Below are positions 1,971 through 22,182 of a stretch of DNA of 22,191 nucleotides, one piece after another; within the stretch, counting starts at the first letter, position 1, and every line of letters begins with the position of its first letter. The notes under the pieces were generated by a model that saw nothing but the letters and a program-made list of their open reading frames with translations, was not told the origin of the DNA and searched no databases. The DNA is from a virus. Position numbers and translations under genes: made by a program. Location of the stretch: positions 1 to 22,191 of IMG/VR virus record IMGVR_UViG_3300004369_000171, one strand, 5' to 3'.

Positions 1971-3428
1971 ATGGCAACCAACGCAGTATTCGATTTCGCC
2001 TCACGCGACTTTCAAAACATTAAGCAAGACCTACTTGCCCGTGCGTCAGTCACGGTTCCAGAGTGGACCGACCGTGATCCCGCCGACTTTGGCATGGTCC
2101 TCGTCGACCTGTGGGCGTACATGGGCGACATTCTCCACTACTACATCGACCTAGCCGCTCAGGAGGCGTTTGTCGAGACGGCAACCCAGCGCGAAAGCGT
2201 CCTGGCGTACGCCAACTTGTTCGATTACACCCCTAATTACAGAGGTGCTTCTTCTGCCACTCTAACTATCGCTAACTCAGGACTGACGGATTACACACTC
2301 GCGGCCTACACTGAGTTTATCGCTGAGTATGATGGTGTGTTCTACTACTTCTACACCGATCTTGAATACGTCATTCCGGCTGGTGGTAGTCAAAGCGTTG
2401 TTGTGTATGAGGGGGACTTTATTAGTGAGGAAGTCCTCACTACATCTGCTTCAGGGGCTATCAGCCAGCGCTACACCTTGCGTAACGAGAATGTCGTTCC
2501 GTCGTCGGTTCGTGTAGTCGTTTACGAAGATGTAAACAACCCAGACGAGTGGCAACAGGTAGAGAGTCTATACACCGTGGACTCCGGTACCGGAGCGTTC
2601 TCAGTGTACGTCAATGCCAACGACGATGTTGAGGTCGTATTTGGTACCCGTCTTAATGGGCGTATTCCCCCGACCGGTGTTCGTATTATTGCCAGGTATA
2701 GCACGAGTAGCGGAGAAAACGGGAATATACCAGCCAACCTTATTGACACGTTCCGGTCTGCCACTTCGTCTGAAATTACAATCCAGTCATCAACGGCCTC
2801 GACTGGTGGTGTTGACGCTGAATCAATCGCCTCAATGAAGGCATCGATTCAAAGTGTCACTCGCGCACAGGATCGAGCAGTAACCTTGAATGACTACGCG
2901 GATATCGCTTTATCTGTCTCGGGCGTTATGAAGTCCATTGCGTCATACAATTCTGGAACAGCCACCGTGACGGTTCACCCTGTTCCGTACGTGTCGGATT
3001 ACCCAAACTACTCAACTTACTCAATTGCAGTGCCATCAACTATACAGACTGACATTGTGGATTTATTGACTATAAAGACTATGGTTGGTGTTAGCGTTGA
3101 TTGTGCTACCGCTATTACTTTGGATCGGGTTGACATCACAGCAACTGTCAAAGTCGACGACCGTTATGTTGCTCCGTGGGTAGAGGATGATGTCAATCGC
3201 GCCATCAACGAGTTGTTTGCGTTTGATGCGGTGGAACTCGGTAAAGAAATACGCATAGGTGATGTTTACAAAAAGATACTCGCCGTTGAAGGTGTCGAAT
3301 ACGCCGTTATTACCACATTCCAACTCGCTGACTCTGGTGGGACTCCTCTCTCCTCCCTGGACCCAACCCACCTAATACGTAAAGGTGGTGTAACACTAAA
3401 TATTACTGGTGGGGTGAGCACTTCATAA
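1971..3428 (+). CDS. baseplate J-like protein (gpJ / gp6 type)
   Basis: This is a 485-aa baseplate wedge component that joins gp25 and gpI-like proteins in contractile-tail baseplates. The N-terminus has FASRDFQNIKQDLL and WTDRDPADFGMVLVDLWAYM. A helix-rich segment DILHYYIDLAAQEAFVETATQR follows, typical of gpJ-like proteins in phages and contractile injection systems. Central residues 90-250 are beta-rich. At about 270-300, GGVDAESIASMKASI is followed by TRAQDRAVTLNDYADIAL, the family's conserved core (aR..draVT..Dya). The C-terminal domain holds VAPWVEDDVNRAINELF and GKEIRIGDVYKKILAVEGVEY. The stop overlaps the next ATG (TAATG). Confidence 0.92.
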   Translation: MATNAVFDFASRDFQNIKQDLLARASVTVPEWTDRDPADFGMVLVDLWAYMGDILHYYIDLAAQEAFVETATQRESVLAYANLFDYTPNYRGASSATLTIANSGLTDYTLAAYTEFIAEYDGVFYYFYTDLEYVIPAGGSQSVVVYEGDFISEEVLTTSASGAISQRYTLRNENVVPSSVRVVVYEDVNNPDEWQQVESLYTVDSGTGAFSVYVNANDDVEVVFGTRLNGRIPPTGVRIIARYSTSSGENGNIPANLIDTFRSATSSEITIQSSTASTGGVDAESIASMKASIQSVTRAQDRAVTLNDYADIALSVSGVMKSIASYNSGTATVTVHPVPYVSDYPNYSTYSIAVPSTIQTDIVDLLTIKTMVGVSVDCATAITLDRVDITATVKVDDRYVAPWVEDDVNRAINELFAFDAVELGKEIRIGDVYKKILAVEGVEYAVITTFQLADSGGTPLSSLDPTHLIRKGGVTLNITGGVSTS

Positions 3429-9759: not shown

Positions 9760-10199
9760 TGGAGGGCAACGATATCTTTTCGTATGACCGTATTGGGCAA
9801 TCGACAATGTTTGAAGGTGTACTAGCGTCACCGCCGTCTGGATCTAAGAAGTTACGTGCCAAGTTTTATGAAGGGCGTGACGACTGGGAAAGTGTCTTAA
9901 AGTTCTGGACTCCCAACGATCTCCCTCTACGATCACTCATTGATTGTGTGAATCGTTTACACCTTGGCACGGAAGTCATCACGTTTCTGCACTCCGACGC
10001 GGCTGAGCCGATCTACGAATGGTTGTCACGTAAAGGTGTTAGCGCTCCTGTCCTGTTCTATGAGAACGCTGAACAATACGCCGAAGATCTTCGATACAAC
10101 AGGGGGGTACGTGTGTTTTACACGAGTAACACAGAAGACGCACACACCGTAGGTATGCGTGCTACCGTCGTCAGTCCGAACACTGCGTGGAGACTCTGA
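9759..10199 (+). CDS. hypothetical alpha/beta protein, 146 aa
   Basis: The ATG at 9759 overlaps the loader stop (TGATG). A TTG one codon earlier is also open. The protein starts MEGNDIFSYDRIGQS. Its second half alternates strands and helices: EVITFLHSDAAEPIYEWLSR, APVLFYENAEQYAEDL, GVRVFYTSN, EDAHTVGMRATVVSP. This resembles the C-terminal part of a HAD-like or other Rossmannoid fold, but a catalytic DxDx(T/V) motif is not visible. I do not recognise the family. It lies between the helicase loader and the helicase, with 1-base overlaps on both sides, so it belongs to the replication operon. Confidence 0.65.
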   Translation: MEGNDIFSYDRIGQSTMFEGVLASPPSGSKKLRAKFYEGRDDWESVLKFWTPNDLPLRSLIDCVNRLHLGTEVITFLHSDAAEPIYEWLSRKGVSAPVLFYENAEQYAEDLRYNRGVRVFYTSNTEDAHTVGMRATVVSPNTAWRL

Positions 10200-11452
10200 T
10201 GGCGAGTAGCGAACTTCTTCTCATATCCAAAGTACTTGAGACCCGTGACCTCACCACACCAGTTCGTGGTGGTATCAAGCCCTACCACTTCACTGGTCAA
10301 TGGGAAAGTGTTTGGCAGTGGATCATTGAGTTCCAACGAGACCACGGTGAAGTGCCCACCGAGCGTGCTCTCCGATCAGAGTTTGGATCAATAACCCTTG
10401 CCGATACTGAGGGCGAGACCATGAGTCGACTCATGGAGGAACTCTTTGATGGTCACAAGACGCGCACGCTAAGTGATGGTCTACAGGAAGCCTTTAACGC
10501 TCTCAATGACAGCGACCCCGACAAGGCCATGTCTCTCGTTACCACCAGCGTGCAAAAAGCCGCTGTTGAATCCTCCCGCATCCGAGACGTAGACATCATT
10601 CAGAATTGGGAAGAACGTATTGCTCGTTACGAAGAAATGAGTAACACACCGAATGCACTTCGTGGGATTCCTACCGGGTTTGAAGGTCTTGACAAAATCA
10701 CCCACGGGTTGCGCCCCCAGCAGTTCATTGTGTTCGCTGGTGAGCCAAAGCGTGGTAAGTCGCTGTTCGCTTTGATCATCGCCAACAGTGCTCACCGTTT
10801 CGGTAAGCGCCCACTATTCGTATCATTTGAGATGAGTGTTGAAGAGCAGACCGCCCGATACGACTCCTTGATTTCTAAAGTTCCATACACACGTATCTTG
10901 TCCGGGGACCTTAACAAGGATGACAAGGACAAGATCAAGAAGGCGTTGATGTTACGGAAAAACATGCAACAGTTCATCATCAGTGAGGACACCTCATCGT
11001 TGACCACTGTTAGCGCCTTGTCAGGAAAAGTCAAGGAGTACAAGCCCGACCTGTTGGTTGTTGACGGTGTGTACTTAATGGATGACGACGAGGGTCAAGA
11101 AAAAGGTTCACCGCAGGCCCTCACGAATATCACACGCGCTCTTAAACGTCTTGCTCAACACCACGACATACCAGTGGTTGCAACAACACAGGTACTTGCT
11201 TGGAAAGTACAAAACCGTAAGACACGCGCGGTTACCGCTGATGCCATTGGGTACACATCATCGTTCGCTCAAGACGCAGACTTAGTACTTGGCGTAGAGC
11301 GAAACCCAGAATTAGACGATCAGGCAATCATCCGAGTTGTCATCGCACGAAGTGCTCCCACTGGAGAGGTGCACGTTAAGTGGGACTGGACAACAATGGA
11401 GTTTGAAGAAGTTTCCAATTATGACGGCTACTCAAACGCAACCTTCGACTAA
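10199..11452 (+). CDS. dnaB-like: DnaB-like replicative DNA helicase
   Basis: The ATG at 10199 overlaps the upstream stop (TGATG). A GTG at 10187 is possible but less coupled. The 417-aa product has a helical N-terminal domain (residues 1-130) and a RecA-fold motor. The motor begins with LRGIPTGFEGLDKITHGLRP and carries Walker A GEPKRGKS (181-188), FVSFEMSVEEQTARYDSLIS (motif H1a region) and Walker B LLVVD with D289. The motif VVATTQVL follows (~residue 330). This is the hexameric 5'-3' fork helicase that works with the loader, primase and polymerase of the same operon. Confidence 0.92.
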   Translation: MASSELLLISKVLETRDLTTPVRGGIKPYHFTGQWESVWQWIIEFQRDHGEVPTERALRSEFGSITLADTEGETMSRLMEELFDGHKTRTLSDGLQEAFNALNDSDPDKAMSLVTTSVQKAAVESSRIRDVDIIQNWEERIARYEEMSNTPNALRGIPTGFEGLDKITHGLRPQQFIVFAGEPKRGKSLFALIIANSAHRFGKRPLFVSFEMSVEEQTARYDSLISKVPYTRILSGDLNKDDKDKIKKALMLRKNMQQFIISEDTSSLTTVSALSGKVKEYKPDLLVVDGVYLMDDDEGQEKGSPQALTNITRALKRLAQHHDIPVVATTQVLAWKVQNRKTRAVTADAIGYTSSFAQDADLVLGVERNPELDDQAIIRVVIARSAPTGEVHVKWDWTTMEFEEVSNYDGYSNATFD

Positions 11453-12341
11453 TCTTGCCGACCTCCTACGCACAGCGGGTGTGTCGATTAAATCCGTTGG
11501 CGAGCGTGAGATAACCGGGAAATGCCCGGTGCACGTGCGCGTAACTGGTCGGGAAGACCGTTCGCCTTCTTGGAGTATTAACGCCGAGAGTGGTCTGTGG
11601 ATCTGTTTTTCATGCGGGGCTAAGGGCACCTTGTCGATGCTTCTTGCCGAGTTGTTAGGTGCTAACGCAACTTGGGACGTACAGAAGTTCATCATTCAGA
11701 ACTCGATTAATCGTCTCAATAACAAAGGCACTGAGCATCACGAACCGGTTGTCGATATCAACGAATTCACAGCGTTTTCGCGTGTGTCTGATACACGCTG
11801 TGAGTATAAAAACCTGGACCCCGACCTCGTTTACCAATACGGCGTTCGGTGGAACCCAAATAACAGATCATGGGCTATACCGATTGTCTCACCCTCTGCT
11901 GAACTCAAAGGATGGCAGGAGAAGAAGTCTTCTTGGGTGCGTAACTTCCCGATAGGGGTAGAGAAATCAAAGACGTTGTTTGGTATCGAACGCTTTAGAT
12001 CGCGTACGGCGATACTGGTTGAGTCTCCTCTAGACATAGTTCGCTTCGCGGCTGTGTTCTCACGCCCCCAGGCGCTCGCCTCGTTTGGAGCACATGTGTC
12101 CGATACGCAGTTATCTCTACTTACTGACGTAGCAGAACGAGTGGTTATCGCTATGGACAACGACGAGGCTGGGTTAGCGGCCAGTAAAAAGATCGCTAAG
12201 AGGATTGCCACCCCGCGCCGTGGTCTTATGTGGTGGAACTACTCGGGCACCGACGCTAAAGACATCGGTGATATGACCGATGATGAAATTGAAAGTGGTC
12301 TAACAAACGCAACAGTTGTGCCTCCCTGGGTTGGTCTCTAA
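11421..12341 (+). CDS. DnaG-type primase (CHC2 zinc finger + TOPRIM)
   Basis: I chose ATG 11421 (MTATQTQPST); the longer open frame upstream is inside the helicase gene. The gene overlaps the helicase by 32 bases. The 306-aa product has a CHC2 zinc finger with C35-x2-H38 and C62-x2-C65 around RSPSWSINAESGLWICF. Its TOPRIM domain has E201 in TAILVESPLDIVR, and D246 and D248 in VIAMDNDEAG. It is shorter than bacterial DnaG (about 580 aa) and lacks the helicase-binding C-terminal domain, as is common for phage primases. It makes RNA primers at the fork. The stop overlaps the next ATG (TAATG). Confidence 0.9.
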   Translation: MTATQTQPSTNLADLLRTAGVSIKSVGEREITGKCPVHVRVTGREDRSPSWSINAESGLWICFSCGAKGTLSMLLAELLGANATWDVQKFIIQNSINRLNNKGTEHHEPVVDINEFTAFSRVSDTRCEYKNLDPDLVYQYGVRWNPNNRSWAIPIVSPSAELKGWQEKKSSWVRNFPIGVEKSKTLFGIERFRSRTAILVESPLDIVRFAAVFSRPQALASFGAHVSDTQLSLLTDVAERVVIAMDNDEAGLAASKKIAKRIATPRRGLMWWNYSGTDAKDIGDMTDDEIESGLTNATVVPPWVGL

Positions 12342-13885
12342 TGTTTGTCGGGAGCCTGTATCCATACCAGCAAGAGTCGGTCGACAAAATGGTCGACCGT
12401 GGCCAAGTACTTCTTGGGCTGGTCATGGGTGCGGGTAAGACTGTGACGACTATCGCCGCGGTCGAAAAACTCATTGAGACGAATGAGATCGAGCGTTGCC
12501 TTGTTGTGGTCCCCGCATCCTTGAAGTACCAATGGATGCGCGAGATCAACAAGTTCACTAACTCACCGGTCGTTGTTATCGACGGTACACCAAAGCAACG
12601 AGAACAACTATGGAAAAGGTCGTTGTCATCCAAGTACACCATTGTGAACCCGGAATCCTTGATGAGGGACAGTAACGCCTATAAGTACCTGTCGTGGCAA
12701 TGCCTGATAGTTGATGAAGCAACCATGCTGAAGTCTCGGTCCAGCAAGCGGTCTAAGATGTTGAAGAGATTGGCCAAGCCGATCTACTACCGATACGCCC
12801 TGACGGGCCAGCCCATCGAGAATCGGCCCGAGGAACTGTTCTCCATTATGGAATTCGTGGACGCCAGCATTCTGGGTAGGTTCGATCTATTCGATAAGAC
12901 GTTTATCGTCCGCGACCACTTCGGTCGACCAAAGCGTTATAAGAATCTGGATGCTCTTCATGAATCCCTGAAAGAGTGCATGATCCGCAAGACTCGGGAA
13001 GATATAGCCGACCAACTCCCACAGATCATCCACCAGGTCATCCCCGTTGCCTTCGATAAGAAGGGCGCTGGTATATACAGTCGCATATCGTCTGACCTTC
13101 TTCATCAGTTACAGGCAGTGATCGGCGTCCACGGGAGCGCATTCAACCTATGGCGTCACTACAACGACGCGGCATCCAACGAGGCCCAGGGGCAGGTCAT
13201 GACCAGACTGACCGCCCTTCGGATGTTGTGTGACAACCCCGAACTGGTCGTCCGGTCATCCAATCTCTACCAGAGCACTAAGAGCGCTGAAGGGAGTAAG
13301 TATGCGTACGAGGTGTGTAAGGCAGGTCTATTCGATGGTCCACTCCACGCACCCAAGTTGGAGGCCGTTGTTGAGTACATACACGATGTCCTGGAGGAAG
13401 ACCACAACAATAAAGTTGTGCTCTTCTCGTTCTTTAAGGAGAACCTGAGGCTGATACAGAAAGCCACTCAAACTATGACACGTAGTGTCCTATTTATGGG
13501 TGGGATGAATGCTAAAGAGCGGGACGATGCAAAGCAACAGTTTAGTACCGATCCTGATACCCGGTTGTTCCTATCCTCGGATGCCGGTGGTTATGGGGTC
13601 GATCTACCGATGGCCAATTATTTGATCTCTTATGACCTCCCGTGGTCGAGCGGTAAGTTGGAACAGCGTGAGGCGCGCATTATTCGACTATCATCACAGT
13701 TCCCGCACGTAACGATTGCAACATTCGTTATGAAGGGAAGCATCGAAGAACGGCAGTACGAGATGCTCCAGCAGAAGAAGTCGATCAACGAGGCGTTTGT
13801 CGATGGTAAACACCACGATATCAAGGGTGGGTTTGACGTGACGCTAGGTAGCCTGTCAAACTTCCTGAAAGAATCCACTGTATAA
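12341..13885 (+). CDS. SNF2-type superfamily 2 DNA helicase/translocase
   Basis: This 514-aa protein is a two-lobed SF2 ATPase. Lobe 1 has the Q-region (LYPYQQESVDKM), Walker A GAGKT (30-34), VVVPASLKYQW (motif Ia), Walker B VDEAT (D125, E126; a variant of DEAH) and TGQPIENRPEELFSI (motif III), which is typical of SNF2 proteins. Lobe 2 has KVVLFSFFKE, LFLSSDAGGYGVDLPMANYL and a final motif VI-like EQREARIIRLSSQ. Phage SNF2 proteins act in replication, recombination or fork remodelling. It sits directly after primase with a TAATG overlap. Confidence 0.9.
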   Translation: MFVGSLYPYQQESVDKMVDRGQVLLGLVMGAGKTVTTIAAVEKLIETNEIERCLVVVPASLKYQWMREINKFTNSPVVVIDGTPKQREQLWKRSLSSKYTIVNPESLMRDSNAYKYLSWQCLIVDEATMLKSRSSKRSKMLKRLAKPIYYRYALTGQPIENRPEELFSIMEFVDASILGRFDLFDKTFIVRDHFGRPKRYKNLDALHESLKECMIRKTREDIADQLPQIIHQVIPVAFDKKGAGIYSRISSDLLHQLQAVIGVHGSAFNLWRHYNDAASNEAQGQVMTRLTALRMLCDNPELVVRSSNLYQSTKSAEGSKYAYEVCKAGLFDGPLHAPKLEAVVEYIHDVLEEDHNNKVVLFSFFKENLRLIQKATQTMTRSVLFMGGMNAKERDDAKQQFSTDPDTRLFLSSDAGGYGVDLPMANYLISYDLPWSSGKLEQREARIIRLSSQFPHVTIATFVMKGSIEERQYEMLQQKKSINEAFVDGKHHDIKGGFDVTLGSLSNFLKESTV

Positions 13886-14764: not shown

Positions 14765-15511
14765 ATGAGCAGATACGACGACGACGACGAAAACGAAGTA
14801 ACAGAAGAGGCCCCGAAGCGTCGATACGAAGACGATGACGTTCCGGTACGTAAGGCACCACCAACCCGTGTCACCGCAGACGACGAAGACGAGGACGAAG
14901 AGGACACCGCTGTTAAGGCAAACGCTTCCCGCGTCATCAAGCGCGGATGGGCCGCGGCTGAGAAGTTGCAGAACGCTAATTCAGGCTTCGCCCAGCGTCT
15001 TCGTGTAACTGAAGACGCGGTCATCATCAAGTTTCTTGAAGACGACCCGTACGCTACGTACCGCCAACACTGGGTCGAGCGCAGTGGTCAGAAGTCCTTC
15101 ACGTGCATCGCAGACATTGATGACCGCGGTTGTCCGCTGTGCAAGGCGGGTAATAGGCCGACCATGAAGTTTGCGTTTAACGTGGTGCTGTTGGCATCCG
15201 ATGGGGATCACTCTGTGAAGTCCTACGAAGTTGGTGCTCGTGCCATCGATCAGTTGAAGAACTTCCACACCGACCCTCGACAAGGACCACTCAGCAAGAA
15301 CTACTGGGCGGTCAGTCGTTCAGGAAAGGGTGCTACTTCAGCGACGAATCATCAAATGATCCGTGATCGCGATCTTGAAGATTGGAACATGGAACCGATT
15401 TCTGACGCCGGTATCAAGGCGCTCATGAAAGAGGCTTACGGACCGGAGATCGTGCAGATCCCGTCCCGCAAGGACTTGATGAACATCGTCATTGAAGACA
15501 TGGGTGACTGA
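14765..15511 (+). CDS. gp32-like single-stranded DNA-binding protein, putative
   Basis: This 248-aa protein has AAGGAG 6 bases before the ATG. Residues 1-50 are extremely acidic (YDDDDENEVTEE, DDEDEDEEDTA). The core (75-215) has FLEDDPYATYRQHWVE, FTCIADIDDRGCPLCKAG and TMKFAFNVVLLASDGDHSVK, then YEVGARAIDQL. This looks like an OB-fold with a Cys cluster (C-x9-13-C-x2-C), as in T4 gp32-type proteins. The gp32 and bacterial SSB acidic tails are C-terminal, so the N-terminal acidic tail is unusual. Its place next to DNA polymerase and primase fits binding ssDNA at the fork. The assignment rests on pattern and context. Confidence 0.75.
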   Translation: MSRYDDDDENEVTEEAPKRRYEDDDVPVRKAPPTRVTADDEDEDEEDTAVKANASRVIKRGWAAAEKLQNANSGFAQRLRVTEDAVIIKFLEDDPYATYRQHWVERSGQKSFTCIADIDDRGCPLCKAGNRPTMKFAFNVVLLASDGDHSVKSYEVGARAIDQLKNFHTDPRQGPLSKNYWAVSRSGKGATSATNHQMIRDRDLEDWNMEPISDAGIKALMKEAYGPEIVQIPSRKDLMNIVIEDMGD

Positions 15512-15514
15512 CCC

Positions 15515-17605
15515 GTGCCAACATATGGTGACAGCGTAGGGGGCCACACGGCCCCCTACGTCGTCTCTACGATTGAAGAACTTCAGCGCATTGTCGATAC
15601 TGTCCTAGAGACAGGTCACTTTGTGTTTGACGTAGAAACGCGCGGTATTGTCGACCGTCACCCAGATGTGTTGGAGTGGGTCGAGCAAGAGTGGTCAGAG
15701 CACGCCACCACTTTAAAGACCACTAACCCCGAAGTTCTTGCCCGTTCACGTGAAACAATAATGAACCGTTGGCGTTCTACTCTCGCGCTGGACCCCATGC
15801 GTAATGAAGTGTTCTGGATCGGTATCGCTACGGAACGCCAATCGTGGGCTATCCCTATGGGGCACCCTAACGGAGAAGTTATTGAACCAGCCGAGCGCGG
15901 GGACGGTACAACCACACCTCCTCCCGGTTACCGCAATGTGCTTAAGAGCGGTAAGGAGTCGATGGCTAAGTCTAAGTACTTTAAGCCAGCCGTGTTCAGT
16001 GACCCACCGGAGCAGATGGTTCGATCAGAGGTTTTTAAGACTCTCCATCCCCTGTTTTTTGGTGACGTTCTCAAGATTGGGCACAACGTAAAGTTCGACG
16101 CTCGGTCGATACGTAAATACTACGACGACGACCTACCAACCGAGCCATTCATGGACACGATGATCATGCAACACATCGTGAACGAGAACCTCAGCAGTTA
16201 CAGCCTAGACGAGTTGATAAAGCACAACTTTGATGGGTTTACGGCGTATAAGGGCGACGGTAAGGTCGGCTCAATTATTACGGAAGTTCCGTTCTCGTCC
16301 GCCGCCAGGTACGTACACCGAGACGTTCGGTGGACCTGGAATCTGTATCGCTACCTATGGCGTCGTATGAAAAACGACGACCAGTTGATTACGTGCTTGC
16401 GACAAGACATGCGGGTGTTGCGTGTTCTGATGGAAATGGAAGACAACGGTATTCCCGTTAACCACCGGTCTATGAGGTCATTGGGTAAGCATCTAGATAA
16501 GAAACTACAAGACCTTCTTAAAGACATGATGGACTACGCCCCACCAGGGTTTAATCCAGACAGTACGAAACACAAACAAGAACTTCTATTCAAGAAAAAG
16601 AGAGAGGGTGGGTTGGGGCTTACCCCATCTAAGAAGACCAGCACAGGTGCCGCGTCTGTTGACGAAGAAACGCTACGTAAACTAGAAGCCAAGCACCCAA
16701 TGATTCCCATGCTACTGGACTGGTCTGAGACCAAGAAAGTGAAGTCAACTTATGTTGATGGGCTTTTGCCTAAGTTACACAAGGGGTCTCTCCACCCGTC
16801 ATTCCACTTACACCGCACCGCCACAGGTCGGTTGTCATCGAGCAACCCGAACCTACAGAACATCCCACGAGACTCCAGTGTCCGAGGTCTATTCGTAGCC
16901 CCCGAAGGGTACAAAATGCTGGTTGCTGACTACGACCAGATCGAACTCCGGGTTATGTGTATGTTCTCAGGAGATAAGAAGATGAGCGAATTCTTCCTCA
17001 CCGGAGCGGACATCCACGCTGGAGCCGCGGCCTTGGTGTTGGGCAAGGATGTAACTGAGGTAACGAGTGAAGAGAGGCAGTTAGGAAAGGGTGTAAACTT
17101 CCTAACCGCTTACGGTGGTGGTGCCCAGAAACTGGCGCGAACCACCGGCATCGACGAAGACCACGCCAAGTTCGTGATTGACCAGTACTACAGACAGTTT
17201 TCCGGGATTACTAAGTGGAAGCAGGATGTAGTGCGTCAGGCTATGTCGAAGGGTTACGTCACAACCATGTCAGGTCGTCGTCGGCGGTTGCCTGACATTC
17301 TGTCGACTGACCAAGCCCTTCGCTCACGAGCAGAACGCCAGGCGGTAAACGCTGTCGTGCAGGGGTCCGCGGCTGATATTTGTAAACAAGCAATGGTTAA
17401 CGTATATGACGCCCTATCGGGCACTGACGCAAAGATGCTCGTACAAGTCCACGACGAGTTGGTTGTCGTAGTGCCCGAGGACTCCGTAGAAGAGTTGGAA
17501 CCCGTGTTCGTCTCAGCCATGGGGGATGGTTTAGTGTACGATGGTATACCTCTGAAAGTGTCCTGCCATTCGGCCTATAGTTGGTCGGAAGCGAAAGGCA
17601 AATAG
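15515..17605 (+). CDS. polA-like: family A DNA polymerase with 3'-5' exonuclease
   Basis: The GTG start at 15515 lies 3 bases after the upstream stop. No ATG lies between it and the exonuclease motif. The 696-aa product has Exo I FDVETRG (D39, E41), Exo II HNVKFD (H190-D195) and Exo III YVHRD (Y266, D270). A ~150-residue spacer separates Exo I and II. Polymerase motif A is VADYDQIELRV (D472). Motif B is RQLGKGVNFLTAYGG (~521-535), with Phe at the dNTP-selecting position. Motif C is VQVHDELVVV (H646, D647, E648). No 5'-nuclease domain is present, as in T7-like enzymes. It replicates the phage genome. Confidence 0.97.
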   Translation: MPTYGDSVGGHTAPYVVSTIEELQRIVDTVLETGHFVFDVETRGIVDRHPDVLEWVEQEWSEHATTLKTTNPEVLARSRETIMNRWRSTLALDPMRNEVFWIGIATERQSWAIPMGHPNGEVIEPAERGDGTTTPPPGYRNVLKSGKESMAKSKYFKPAVFSDPPEQMVRSEVFKTLHPLFFGDVLKIGHNVKFDARSIRKYYDDDLPTEPFMDTMIMQHIVNENLSSYSLDELIKHNFDGFTAYKGDGKVGSIITEVPFSSAARYVHRDVRWTWNLYRYLWRRMKNDDQLITCLRQDMRVLRVLMEMEDNGIPVNHRSMRSLGKHLDKKLQDLLKDMMDYAPPGFNPDSTKHKQELLFKKKREGGLGLTPSKKTSTGAASVDEETLRKLEAKHPMIPMLLDWSETKKVKSTYVDGLLPKLHKGSLHPSFHLHRTATGRLSSSNPNLQNIPRDSSVRGLFVAPEGYKMLVADYDQIELRVMCMFSGDKKMSEFFLTGADIHAGAAALVLGKDVTEVTSEERQLGKGVNFLTAYGGGAQKLARTTGIDEDHAKFVIDQYYRQFSGITKWKQDVVRQAMSKGYVTTMSGRRRRLPDILSTDQALRSRAERQAVNAVVQGSAADICKQAMVNVYDALSGTDAKMLVQVHDELVVVVPEDSVEELEPVFVSAMGDGLVYDGIPLKVSCHSAYSWSEAKGK
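15535..15560 (+). promoter_or_regulatory. perfect 11-bp RNA hairpin in the first codons of the polymerase gene
   Basis: The arms CGTAGGGGGCC (15535-15545) and GGCCCCCTACG (15550-15560) are perfectly complementary around the loop ACAC. The hairpin begins 20 bases after the GTG, within codons 7-16. No T-run follows, so it is not a usual terminator. It could slow initiation or bind a regulatory protein. Confidence 0.6.
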
Positions 17606-18470: not shown

Positions 18471-19490
18471 GTGTCAAAAACTGAACAGCGTGAATCGCTT
18501 GAGTCGATCATTGCGTCGGTAAACAAGAAGTACGGGGAAGAGATAGTCATTCAGGGAAGCGCCATGCGGGAAGAGTTGCCCCGTATCACCACAGGTGTAT
18601 TGGCGTTTGACCTAATGCTTGGGGGTGGTTGGCCCACTAATCAATGGTCGGAGATCATTGGTGATGAGTCATCCGGTAAAACAGCGGTGGCGTATAAGAC
18701 CATCGCGGCTAATCAGGCGTTAGACCCTGAGTTCATTGCCATGTGGATCGCCGCCGAAGAGTTCGTACCCGAATACGCCAAGGCAATCGGTGTCGATTTG
18801 GAACGCCTGTGGGTCGTAGAGACCAACGTCATGGAGCATGCTTATGATCTCGTTATTCGTGCATTGGACAACCGAGCCGTTGATTGTATCGTCATTGATT
18901 CACTACCGGCGCTGGTTCCAGGCGACGAAGCCGAAAAGATGATGGACGAGTTCTCGGTCGGTATTGGCGCACGCCTGACTGGAAAGTTTCTTCGTAAATC
19001 ATCAAAGGCCCAGAAGCGTTCTATGACTCGTGAAGAGCGTGGGTGCACGGGTTTGATCATCAACCAGTGGCGCGAGAAGATTGGTGTCATGTATGGTGAC
19101 AACCGCACAACACCTGGTGGGCGCGCTAAGAACTTCCATTACTTCACACGTGTTGAGGTCAAGCGCGATGAGTGGCTGAAAGTCAAGGATGAGCCTGTCG
19201 GGCAGACAATCCGTGGGCGTACCTTGAAGAACAAGACCTACCGCCCTCAGCAGATCGCCCAGGTGGATTTCTATTTTGCTGACAGTAACACCTTTAAATT
19301 CGGTGACTTCGACACGATCAAGGATGTCGTGAACATCTGTATCGCAGTAGATATAATCACCCGAGCCGGGGCCTATTACAACTATGGGGATCAGAAGTGG
19401 CAGGGTAAAGACGCCTTGATCGCTGGTGTCCGTGAAGATATTGATCTACAAAATGAACTACGCCAGAAAGCGATGGACTACTTCCTATGA
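18471..19490 (+). CDS. recA-like: RecA-family recombinase
   Basis: This 339-aa protein starts at GTG 18471 with AAAGGA upstream. Residues ~36-54 have PRITTGVLAFDLMLGGGWP, typical of RecA. Walker A is GDESSGKT (64-71), catalytic Glu lies in IAAEEF (96-97), and Walker B is CIVID (D143) followed by SLPALVPGDE. Loop-2-like residues TGLIINQWREKIGVMYG and a PGGRAKNF segment complete the core. The C-terminus differs from cellular RecA and lacks the acidic tail. It should catalyse strand exchange for phage recombination and repair. It leads a cluster with three nucleases of the PD-(D/E)XK type. Confidence 0.93.
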   Translation: MSKTEQRESLESIIASVNKKYGEEIVIQGSAMREELPRITTGVLAFDLMLGGGWPTNQWSEIIGDESSGKTAVAYKTIAANQALDPEFIAMWIAAEEFVPEYAKAIGVDLERLWVVETNVMEHAYDLVIRALDNRAVDCIVIDSLPALVPGDEAEKMMDEFSVGIGARLTGKFLRKSSKAQKRSMTREERGCTGLIINQWREKIGVMYGDNRTTPGGRAKNFHYFTRVEVKRDEWLKVKDEPVGQTIRGRTLKNKTYRPQQIAQVDFYFADSNTFKFGDFDTIKDVVNICIAVDIITRAGAYYNYGDQKWQGKDALIAGVREDIDLQNELRQKAMDYFL

Positions 19491-19837
19491 TCTTCGGAGA
19501 TGACGAAGCCAAGGCGCGTCGTAAGGAGCACCAGCGGAGGATTATGAAAGCCTCCCGTAAACAGGAAGACCGCACGGCTAACCGTTACAAGGGTTCCCGT
19601 AATGCCGGGTCTGGCTCAGGATGGCTCCGCAAGAACGACGTGCGTTCTGACAACCTTCTTATCGAGAACAAACTGACTGAGAACACGAAGTCGTACTCGA
19701 TCAAGTTCAAGGAACTCGACGAACTGCGCCAGCGGGCGATTCTTGACGACCGACTTCCCGTACTCCAGTTCGACCTTGGTGGTCGTAACTTCGTGATCCT
19801 CAATGAGGACGATTTCCTGGCGATGATTGATGTCTGA
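19487..19837 (+). CDS. PD-(D/E)XK nuclease, Holliday-junction-resolvase-like
   Basis: This 116-aa protein starts with ATG overlapping the recA stop as ATGA. The first 40 residues are very basic (EAKARRKEHQRRIMKASRKQ). Then a Gly/Ser turn (GSGSGW, 41-46) and the nuclease core follow: D51/D55 and E60-N-K62 in NDVRSDNLLIENKLT. The end has VLQFDLGGRNFVILNEDDF, which fits the last strands. The layout resembles small archaeal/phage resolvases (Hjc-like) with a GSG turn before the D...ExK site. Cleavage of branched DNA made by the adjacent RecA is the inferred role; another endonuclease of the superfamily is possible. Confidence 0.75.
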   Translation: MIFGDDEAKARRKEHQRRIMKASRKQEDRTANRYKGSRNAGSGSGWLRKNDVRSDNLLIENKLTENTKSYSIKFKELDELRQRAILDDRLPVLQFDLGGRNFVILNEDDFLAMIDV

Positions 19838-20702
19838 TTGGGCCACCAAGGATTACAAGCAATCCTTCAAATCACGAGGACGTGTTATCCCCGCGGTTGA
19901 GCGGGCTTTGATGCGCGAGACGGTTGTCCGTAACGAGCATCGCGACACCCTCCACCTACACCCAAGTGAGATATCCAAGAAGGACTGGTGTCCTCGGGCC
20001 TCGTGGTACAAGATTAAGGGACACCCCGTACCGCCTGAGTCGCTGTCGTTTCAGCGTCTAAATATCTTCGCAGAGGGTCATTCGATCCACGAGAAGTGGC
20101 AACGCTGGCTACACCAGGCCGGTCTCTTATCTGGCCTATGGGAGTGTCGAGACTGTACAAATACTTTCTACGCTGATGCTCCTAACATCTGTCAATCCTG
20201 TTTCAGCACGGCGATCAAGTACAAAGAAGTGCCGATCCGTAACGACGAATTGCACATCATGGGGCACTCTGATGGTGAAATCTTTGATGATAATGGCCGC
20301 GCACTGATCGAGATCAAGAGCGTCGGTATTGGAACTGTGCGGTGGGAAAACCCCAGCCTATTCCACGGTTACCAGAATAAGGAACTGACCATCGATGGCG
20401 TGTGGAAGAACATCAAGAAGCCATTCGCTTCCCATATCCGTCAGGGCACGATCTACATGCACTGCCGGAAGATCGACACCATCGTGTTTATCTACGAGTG
20501 GAAGCCCACCCAGGATGTCAAAGAGTTCGTCGTCGAGTACCAGCCCGAAATCATGGAACCAATCATCCAGGGATGCAAGTCTGTTGTTGAGCATCTCGAC
20601 GGGGACACCCCACCGCCACGTACTACTTGGGCCTCGGTAGCCCACCCCGAGTGCAAGAAGTGCCCGTTCTATAAGGAGTGTTGGAGTGCGCGTAATACCT
20701 AA
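19830..20702 (+). CDS. Cas4/RecB-like PD-(D/E)XK exonuclease with Fe-S and zinc-ribbon cysteines
   Basis: ATG 19830 was chosen over a TTG at 19827; it overlaps the upstream gene by 8 bases. The 290-aa product has C54 near the N-terminus and H84 in FAEGHSIHEKWQRW. The active-site residues are D148 in MGHSDGE, E161 and K163 in LIEIKSV, and Q205/Y209 in RQGTIYMH. The C-terminal trio is C275, C278 and C284 (CKKCPFYKEC). Together with C54 these match the four-Cys [4Fe-4S] cluster of Cas4/AddB-type nucleases. A four-Cys ribbon C106/C109/C121/C124 is inserted between the H and D motifs. A DNA end-resection role for recombination is inferred. No cas genes or CRISPR array are present. Confidence 0.88.
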   Translation: MSDWATKDYKQSFKSRGRVIPAVERALMRETVVRNEHRDTLHLHPSEISKKDWCPRASWYKIKGHPVPPESLSFQRLNIFAEGHSIHEKWQRWLHQAGLLSGLWECRDCTNTFYADAPNICQSCFSTAIKYKEVPIRNDELHIMGHSDGEIFDDNGRALIEIKSVGIGTVRWENPSLFHGYQNKELTIDGVWKNIKKPFASHIRQGTIYMHCRKIDTIVFIYEWKPTQDVKEFVVEYQPEIMEPIIQGCKSVVEHLDGDTPPPRTTWASVAHPECKKCPFYKECWSARNT

Positions 20703-21183
20703 GGACAGCACACCGGACCCCGTCGTCGCACGGTTCTCACGTAAGTTCTCGTTGCCGTCTCGGCCATCGGACGAGGTACCGGACCTCCCGAAACACCTGG
20801 ATGACCTCGGTGATGATGATCTAATGGACTTGTACACAGAGTTCATGTCATGGGTGTCGTACGCCAAAGCCGAGATGGTCAACGCCGAGATCGCTGAGGA
20901 GCGTGAAGCGACCTTCCTTCGTGTGCTGGAAGCCAAAGTCCTTATCGAGCAATGGGGCGCTGAGGCTAAGGGAGACCGGGTTACCATCGCTAAGGCCCGC
21001 CGTGACATCGACTCACGTGTCGTCAGTCAGCAGGACGAGCACCGCCAGGCCCGTGCCTACCGCAAGTTGGTGGAGTCGGTATTCGACCGCTGTGAGCGTG
21101 GGGCGCAGTTGCTCTCCCGTGAACTCAGTCGACGGATCGGACTGCATTCTAAAGAGCACCGTGGTGGAAGGTTCAGCGCCTGA
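20686..21183 (+). CDS. hypothetical helical protein, 165 aa
   Basis: The GTG at 20686 has AAGGAG 7 bases upstream and overlaps the Cas4-like gene by 17 bases. After a Pro-rich start (PKDSTPDPVVARFSRKFS, PSRPSDEVPDLPKHLDD), the rest is long charged helices: LMDLYTEFMSWVSYAKAEM, EIAEEREATFLRVLEAKVL, then SQQDEHRQARAYRKLVESVF and a basic tail RIGLHSKEHRGGRFSA. A coiled-coil or helical bundle is likely. Its place between two nucleases suggests a partner or regulator of recombination enzymes. I do not recognise the family. The end overlaps the next gene by one base (TGATG). Confidence 0.7.
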   Translation: MRVIPKDSTPDPVVARFSRKFSLPSRPSDEVPDLPKHLDDLGDDDLMDLYTEFMSWVSYAKAEMVNAEIAEEREATFLRVLEAKVLIEQWGAEAKGDRVTIAKARRDIDSRVVSQQDEHRQARAYRKLVESVFDRCERGAQLLSRELSRRIGLHSKEHRGGRFSA

Positions 21184-21545
21184 TGGCAAACCGCAGTAAG
21201 GCCAAGGGTACATCTTTTGAAACCCTGATAAAGAACTTTCTAAACAATAACGGGTTCAAGAAGGCCCACCGCACGGCTCTCACTGGTGGTGACGACGCGG
21301 GGGATATCCACGGGATCGAGCGTCCTGACGGCCATAAGGCTATTATCCAATGTAAGAACCAGAAGAAGCACGACTTCAGCGGATGGCTTGACGCCACGGT
21401 CGAGCAAGCCTCCCGCGCGGATGACGCTGTACCCGCTTTAGTTGTTAAGCGGGCTGGTAAGGGAGAAAAAGCCGTGGGTGATTCCTACGTTGTTATGCGC
21501 CTTTGTGATTTCGTTTCTCTCCTGCACGAGGCAGACTACTCCTAA
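21183..21545 (+). CDS. PD-(D/E)XK nuclease, resolvase-like (QxK variant)
   Basis: This 120-aa protein starts at ATG 21183 (TGATG overlap). The motifs match a small resolvase/endonuclease fold. E13 is in KGTSFETLIKNFL, D41 is in GGDDAGDIHGIE, and IIQCKNQKK has Q56-x-K58, where Gln stands in for the usual Glu. The later helix (WLDATVEQASRAD) and strand (VPALVVKRAGKG) are typical of Holliday-junction-resolvase-like and Mrr-type nucleases. Phage versions with QxK are often still active, by analogy with other superfamily members. It is the third nuclease of this superfamily in 2 kb, after the Hjc-like and Cas4-like ones. Confidence 0.82.
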   Translation: MANRSKAKGTSFETLIKNFLNNNGFKKAHRTALTGGDDAGDIHGIERPDGHKAIIQCKNQKKHDFSGWLDATVEQASRADDAVPALVVKRAGKGEKAVGDSYVVMRLCDFVSLLHEADYS

Positions 21546-21576
21546 ACTCCTTGTCTAAGTGAGCACAACAAGGAGT
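21546..21576 (+). promoter_or_regulatory. hairpin pairing the Shine-Dalgarno site of the SpoVS-like gene
   Basis: ACTCCTTGT (21546-21554) is perfectly complementary to ACAAGGAGT (21568-21576), with a 13-base loop. The right arm contains the whole AAGGAG ribosome site of the gene that starts at 21582. The left arm begins one base after the stop codon of the upstream gene. Folding would hide the ribosome site. Confidence 0.65.
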
Positions 21577-21581
21577 ACCCC

Positions 21582-21863
21582 ATGTCTCAAGAGTCGTCCG
21601 ACGACATTATTAAAGTATCCGGCAGTAGCAGTCCCCAGAGCGTAGGGTCCATCGTGGCCCGGGGCGTTGTGGCTGGGCAATCCCCTAAGATGCGGGCCAT
21701 TGGAGCCAGCGCTGTCAACCAGGCCGTTAAAGCCTGTGCTATTGCCAGGGGGTTTGTGGCCCCTCGGGGTATTGACCTTTGCTTCATTATTGGGTTCGAC
21801 GACATCGCGGGAGAGAATGGCGATACTATTTCGGCCATCTCTTTCAAGCCTGTCGTCCGCTAA
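21582..21863 (+). CDS. spoVS-like: SpoVS-family (Alba-like) protein
   Basis: This 93-aa protein has AAGGAG at 21570-21575. The hallmark residues of stage V sporulation protein S are clear: IKVSGSSSPQSVGSIVA, then RAIGASAVNQAVKACAIARG and FVAPRGIDLCFIIGF. Cellular SpoVS is about 86 aa, so this is full length plus a short acidic N-terminus (MSQESSDDI). The family has an Alba-like, probably nucleic-acid-binding fold and affects sporulation and septation in Bacillus. It is also found in non-sporulating bacteria. In a phage it may act as a nucleoid or RNA-binding protein or alter host development; the actual role is unknown. Confidence 0.93.
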   Translation: MSQESSDDIIKVSGSSSPQSVGSIVARGVVAGQSPKMRAIGASAVNQAVKACAIARGFVAPRGIDLCFIIGFDDIAGENGDTISAISFKPVVR

Positions 21864-21911: not shown

Positions 21912-22058
21912 ATGTCTAAAAAGAGAGACTACTCACACGAGTACTTCAAGGAAGACCTTGAAGAATTGAACTACAGTAAGAAGTACAACAAGTACGAGGC
22001 TAGGGACAGCAAACGCGATAAGCGCAAGCAAACAGCATCGGACTACTTCTATGACTAA
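21912..22058 (+). CDS. short charged protein, 48 aa
   Basis: The ATG at 21912 opens a frame MSKKRDYSHEYFKEDLEELN, then YSKKYNKYEARDSKRDKRKQ and TASDYFYD, with a TAA stop at 22056-22058. The protein is very rich in Lys, Asp, Glu and Tyr, with a repeated YxKxY-type rhythm. It is probably helical and soluble. No strong Shine-Dalgarno sequence is seen (AGGGAC is about 12 bases upstream). I do not recognise it. The next gene overlaps its end by 8 bases, and composition and stop placement support a real gene. Confidence 0.6.
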   Translation: MSKKRDYSHEYFKEDLEELNYSKKYNKYEARDSKRDKRKQTASDYFYD

Positions 22059-22182
22059 GAAGAAAGCCCCAGATAAGAAGGCTCCTGCGAAAAAGAAGAA
22101 GCCACGTCCGGTGTCAGCACGAGCAGGTGGAGGCCATCAAGGTGGTCTCCTATCAGGACCCGGTAACGGGTTAGGACGTTAG
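22051..22182 (+). CDS. short Lys-rich protein, 43 aa
   Basis: The ATG at 22051 overlaps the previous gene by 8 bases, and the frame ends with TAG at 22180-22182. The product is MTKKKAPDKKAPAKKKKPRP, then VSARAGGGHQGGLLSG and a Gly-rich end PGNGLGR. The first half is Lys/Ala/Pro-rich, like histone-H1-type tails; the second half is Gly-rich. The DKKAPAKKKK segment is identical to the end of the small Cys-rich protein on the minus strand (6417-6533). The role is unknown; nucleic-acid binding would fit the charge. Confidence 0.55.
   Translation: MTKKKAPDKKAPAKKKKPRPVSARAGGGHQGGLLSGPGNGLGR

Follow-up and report, generated by a model that had tools for sequence, protein, structure and literature searches.

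The window (the whole analysed stretch of 22,191 nucleotides, IMG/VR virus record IMGVR_UViG_3300004369_000171) carries a 93-aa open reading frame encoding a SpoVS protein, preceded by genes for DNA replication and recombination. The features relevant to this gene are as follows.

1971 to 3428, plus strand: baseplate J-like protein of a contractile tail (PF04865, 51.4 bits; phrog_219)
10187 to 11452, plus strand: DnaB-like helicase (phrog_19, E 1.8e-65), the probe of the co-occurrence test
14765 to 15511, plus strand: single-stranded DNA-binding protein (SSB; phrog_14578, E 1.4e-9)
15515 to 17605, plus strand: DNA polymerase A (PolA; phrog_17, E 2.7e-133)
18471 to 19490, plus strand: RecA/UvsX recombinase (PF00154, 172.9 bits; phrog_97)
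19487 to 19837, plus strand: second Holliday junction resolvase-like protein (phrog_2002, E 1.4e-19)
19827 to 20702, plus strand: Cas4-domain-like exonuclease (phrog_2506, E 4.9e-32; phrog_1990)
20686 to 21183, plus strand: conserved module protein of 165 aa, with homologues in most related loci
21183 to 21545, plus strand: PDDEXK nuclease, Holliday junction resolvase-like (phrog_244, E 1.3e-26; PF24608 and PF04471 above cut-off)
21570 to 21575, plus strand: ribosome-binding-like motif AAGGAG, read from the sequence, 6 nt before the SpoVS ATG
21582 to 21863, plus strand: SpoVS (Alba-like), 93 aa (PF04232, phrog_35646, AlphaFold2 model and VIA fold matches)

The replication part runs in the order replication initiator, DnaB, primase, SNF2 helicase, SSB and PolA, and is followed by RecA, the Holliday junction resolvase-like protein, the Cas4-like exonuclease, the 165-aa protein, the PDDEXK nuclease and, after a gap of 36 bp, SpoVS. 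An earlier note made from the sequence had described a contractile-tailed phage with this gene closing a recombination module, and both statements hold, the tail through baseplate J together with baseplate-wedge genes in the window. Promoter and terminator scans around the SpoVS gene gave nothing above chance. The 165-aa protein, for which Pfam and PHROG searches found no match, keeps its place after the Cas4-like exonuclease and ahead of the resolvase slot throughout most of the lineage. The SNF2-type helicase (12341 to 13885) lies between primase and SSB, the place at which phage BRock has a 'DNA helicase', and a Kelch-repeat protein (325 to 1332), possibly a receptor-binding or tail-tip protein, adjoins the baseplate genes. 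Two tiny ORFs (~48 and ~42 aa), basic or highly charged, follow SpoVS at 21912 to 22176, the second of which is matched in locus L002.

The Pfam SpoVS profile PF04232 matches residues 8 to 88 of the protein with 71.3 bits against a cut-off of 24 (E 5.6e-20), and the alignment spans positions 1 to 80 of the 83 in the profile, a domain-wide match which bears out the earlier description of a full-length SpoVS with an intact core. The PHROG match is phrog_35646 'sporulation protein' (E 2.6e-16), the SpoVS of Thermus thermophilus (2eh1) is matched by sequence with E 4.7e-11, and an NCBIfam search of the protein returned no SpoVS model. The AlphaFold2 model (pLDDT 92) shows the strand and helix order b-a-b-a-b-b of the Alba topology, and the VIA fold search ranked the B. 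subtilis SpoVS model 9a7h_B first (Z 15.7, 48% identity), with T. thermophilus SpoVS at Z 15.0 for 2eh1 (2eh1 and 2ek0, Z 15, 36% identity), so that the model falls within the SpoVS fold. Thermus thermophilus is not known to sporulate. The B. subtilis protein, the closest solved or modelled fold, is the product of a cellular gene, whereas the phage copy lies among recombination nucleases.

Archaeal Alba chains come next after the SpoVS entries in the fold search (Z 9 to 10.4), including an Alba-RNA complex (3wbm, Z 10.3) and an Alba-DNA complex (3u6y, Z 9.3); they share the topology of the window protein, yet only 14 to 17% identity, and nucleic-acid binding by SpoVS itself is putative. Membership of SpoVS in the Alba superfamily is supported by the available part of an Alba survey (PMC11621453), in which the words 'phage' and 'virus' are absent. 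The RNA complex, the RNase P/MRP Alba subunits that are also among the fold matches and the low net charge of the phage protein (~+1) would all suit an RNA-binding protein, of the sort known among Alba proteins, with control over transcripts of the phage or the host; this role is rather unlikely, as the neighbours of SpoVS are DNA nucleases, RecT and SSB and include no RNA enzymes.

Eight residues (G41, N46, Q47, K50, A53, I54, G63 and F72) are fully conserved across a set of 43 rows from viruses and cells, and the window protein has them all. Position 15 is K or R in 74% of cellular SpoVS rows and in 0% of 45 window-type and 37 BRock-type rows; a basic residue here is a common rather than a defining trait of cellular SpoVS, and the window protein lacks it. 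R38 and R62 are fixed in both phage clades, in contrast to cellular rows, only 1% and 5% of which are basic at these positions, while R27 and K36 are characteristic of window-type rows. Judged from these alignments, the surface of phage SpoVS is remodelled and not simply kept, with K15 lost and R38 and R62 fixed, which sets the phage clade apart from B. subtilis SpoVS. SpoVS is evidently under strong purifying selection, with a dN/dS among close relatives of ~0.01 to 0.05 where synonymous sites are unsaturated.

The presence of SpoVS in a contractile-tailed phage had been regarded as unusual, a view that has to be given up. In tblastn searches with PolA and baseplate J, the Streptomyces myophages BRock, LuckySocke, Alone3, GiJojo and pSt2308 ranked first, and these account for 6 of the 10 phage records with a SpoVS match (BRock counted twice); the nearest cultured relatives of the window by PolA are thus themselves SpoVS-bearing Streptomyces myophages. 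BRock gp51 and LuckySocke gp174, from Borockvirus and relatives, are the same gene in the same module order (42% and 40% identity to window SpoVS), with a Holliday junction resolvase gene immediately upstream, which is RuvC-like there and PDDEXK in the window. Unlike the window, both phages carry WhiB inside the module. The protein is labelled 'sporulation protein' in BRock and 'hypothetical protein' in LuckySocke and others (L082, L083).

An IMG/VR scan with window SpoVS yielded 86 relatives, the best 80 of which were kept; these 80 loci hold 44 distinct SpoVS proteins, and since near-copies abound among the contigs, locus counts should not be taken as independent events. Synteny is conserved across the whole module in related loci. 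A comparison of SpoVS with both RecA and PolA was possible in 75 of these 80 loci, where a sufficient part of the module was present; in 71 of them SpoVS had the highest conservation of all matched module genes, and median identity to the window across loci was 80% for SpoVS, 75% for RecA and 67% for PolA, in a sample picked by SpoVS similarity and hence biased toward high SpoVS conservation. Because of this bias, relatives were also retrieved by DnaB, baseplate J having found none as a probe. SpoVS was present in 15 of the 30 DnaB-retrieved records, located 10.3 to 14.6 kb downstream of DnaB; in the other 15, no more than 10,373 bases follow DnaB, which falls short of the smallest observed distance plus the length of the gene, and these records are therefore too short to be informative, so that 15/15 testable records carry SpoVS. 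With at least 575 viral SpoVS stretches in a further IMG/VR scan, SpoVS is among the common viral genes in that database, and in a large actinobacterial myophage lineage it belongs to the core genes instead of being an odd recent capture.

In a tree of 95 SpoVS rows sampled from 193 distinct ones, the 42 rows of the window's phage lineage lie on one side of a single branch with support 100/99, although the bootstrap was not fully settled, and the remaining viral rows intermingle with cellular ones. The tree had been proposed as a means to find a bacterial donor clade, and none is visible among the cellular rows sampled. The best cellular identity to window SpoVS is 56% among the matches listed from one genome-contig scan with two short patterns, which a nearer cellular relative could have escaped. 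Recent capture of the lineage SpoVS from a host was rejected on the separate clade and this best listed identity; the gene appears to be anciently acquired and phage-owned, apart from the sampled cellular SpoVS.

A resolvase-type endonuclease, a putative resolvase by its family label, lies upstream of SpoVS in 160/160 loci (80 window-type and 80 BRock-type), comprising, with families taken from the matches of reference proteins, 145 PDDEXK (phrog_244), 9 RuvC-like (phrog_159) and 6 Endonuclease VII (PF02945 / phrog_307) proteins. Ten of the 80 BRock-type upstream genes, unassigned at first, were labelled via HMM scans of representatives and relabelling. The gap between nuclease and SpoVS is at most 200 bp in 159 of the 160 loci, the exception being L190 with 663 bp and three small ORFs between. 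A third set from another scan (L377 to L420, 44 loci) has RuvC upstream in 43/43 assessable loci, L384 being left out as it starts too near the contig end; RuvC is adjacent in 38 and separated by 263 to 1509 bp in the other five. In total, the nuclease is upstream in 203/203 assessable loci and directly adjacent in 197, a sum of three sets that may share contigs and hold many near-copies rather than independent events. Small ORFs intervene in 6 of the 203 loci, which means that contact between nuclease and SpoVS is not obligatory.

The PDDEXK, RuvC and Endonuclease VII families have unrelated folds. A quick tree of 54 Cas4 exonuclease rows shows at least 5 changes of nuclease type. The simplest reading is that SpoVS stays beside whichever nuclease fills the slot, though shared synteny could give the same picture. 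Two members of the Endonuclease VII clade (L174 and L180) have PDDEXK in the same slot; this recent swap might allow the exchange to be dated.

Outside this lineage, viral SpoVS of the cellular type was sampled in 36 loci from the IMG/VR scan with at least 575 stretches, together with LysYB1 and Stenotrophomonas phage TS-12, and falls into ~18 contexts grouped by eye. In 5 of the ~18 (a raw count), SpoVS lies directly before or close to a gene for handling single-stranded DNA. RecT (phrog_148, E 3.1e-67 or better) is beside SpoVS in L352 to L354, in L355 and in L359; SSB and then PolA accompany it in L338/L339, the gene that directly follows SpoVS in L338 belonging to phrog_14578, the same PHROG as the window SSB; and in L337 it occurs with Sak4, an SSB-like protein and primase. 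The gap from SpoVS to the RecT (L352, L355, L359) or SSB-type gene (L337, L338) is 1 to 2 bp, and is wider in L354 (394 bp) and L339 (632 bp). About 13 of the 18 contexts have no immediate RecT/SSB neighbour, the genes there being terminase/portal, integrase or unassigned, and in L334 other nucleases lie ~1 kb from SpoVS. The viral SpoVS genes beside RecT/SSB were acquired independently of the window lineage.

A passenger role, in which common descent accounts for the terminal place of SpoVS in the module and no function links it to the adjacent genes, would agree with the synteny of the entire module and with the loci in which ORFs intervene, but is very unlikely given the strong purifying selection, the absence of SpoVS loss among the testable DnaB-retrieved relatives and the similar gene company in unrelated phages. 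The preferred reading, held with a probability of roughly 55%, is that the phage-owned Alba-fold SpoVS is a small nucleic-acid-binding accessory of phage replication/recombination and not a sporulation gene. We infer both the nucleic-acid binding and the partnership with the nuclease. SpoVS and the resolvase-type nuclease immediately before it are probably expressed together; SpoVS would bind phage DNA in the branched or single-stranded form that RecA and the Cas4-type exonuclease produce, and may help to present such DNA to the resolvase for debranching ahead of packaging. That SpoVS is kept near a junction-cutting enzyme suggests handling of the virus's own DNA instead of spore formation. 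This recombination accessory role is supported by family, fold, conservation, lineage-wide presence, the separate clade, the resolvase neighbourhood maintained through swaps and the RecT/SSB adjacency. Against it stand the capacity of conserved synteny alone to keep neighbours together, the many other viral contexts lacking RecT/SSB, the net charge, which is weak for a general DNA coater, and the ties of cellular SpoVS to septation and sporulation, as given in passages of the literature.

An alternative, in line with the 'sporulation AMG' reading in the literature, is that phage SpoVS alters host septation or sporulation, alone or with WhiB, which occurs in Actinobacteria and in the phages that infect them. 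WhiB was found in 25 of 27 lineage records tested, taken from 35 lineage records of at least 70 kb, which points to actinobacterial hosts; isolated relatives of the window infect Streptomyces, and the window phage itself probably has an actinobacterial host. All of this is compatible with control of host development, as is the position of WhiB within the recombination module in BRock-type loci; in window-type loci, WhiB is absent from the module and SpoVS stays. Among 396 Actinomycetota genomes, SpoVS was found in 127, WhiB in 177 and both in 10 (Fisher p ~7e-27, which ignores the relatedness of genomes), and SpoVS occurred in 0/29 WhiB-bearing genomes of at least 5 Mb, so most of the likely hosts would offer no SpoVS for a phage to mimic. 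Together with the location of SpoVS among DNA-repair genes and its better conservation than RecA, this makes host control distinctly unlikely. The earlier note had left the choice between a recombination role and control of host development: the former is the better of the two, and the latter loses weight given how few WhiB-bearing Actinomycetota possess SpoVS themselves.

Published work already describes viral spoVS and reads it as a gene of sporulation or dormancy, in passages on viral contigs from permafrost soil viromes (PMC6172770) and from an oxygen minimum zone (PMC8940887); in these passages the sporulation reading of the 'spoVS AMG' is given without genomic context. The main text of a human-gut phage survey (PMC10294663), as far as available, does not contain 'spoVS', and no report of SpoVS pairing with a nuclease or RecT was found in the titles, abstracts and passages covered. 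What is new is accordingly the pattern, namely the SpoVS-nuclease and SpoVS-RecT/SSB pairing, and not the protein family. Virome counts of 'sporulation AMGs' may partly measure recombination genes.

What SpoVS does at the molecular level has, to our knowledge, been an open question ever since its description in 1995. The pairing with three unrelated resolvase families and elsewhere with RecT/SSB offers a specific and cheap test of SpoVS function. As a tentative extension of the recombination accessory role, SpoVS might in essence be a DNA-recombination accessory acting with RecT, SSB and junction resolvases, taken up by phages again and again in that capacity; the defects in sporulation and septation that cellular spoVS mutants show would then be effects downstream of chromosome processing. 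Ten loci of cellular SpoVS gave no clear pattern of neighbours, and a crude pattern search placed a YmdB-like motif near cellular SpoVS in 19/110 loci.

Besides recombination genes, some viral loci offer another type of neighbourhood, in which SpoVS adjoins the terminase large subunit (L356, L357) or lies upstream of portal (L370). The SpoVS of phage TS-12 (MW302330, 10909 to 11184; L084/L421) falls in with SpoVS of the Bacillus type, and the genes around it (monooxygenase, ABC transporter, phosphohydrolase) resemble those of a chromosome; host flank may form part of the record. SpoVS copies similar to that of TS-12 adjoin an integrase in L324.
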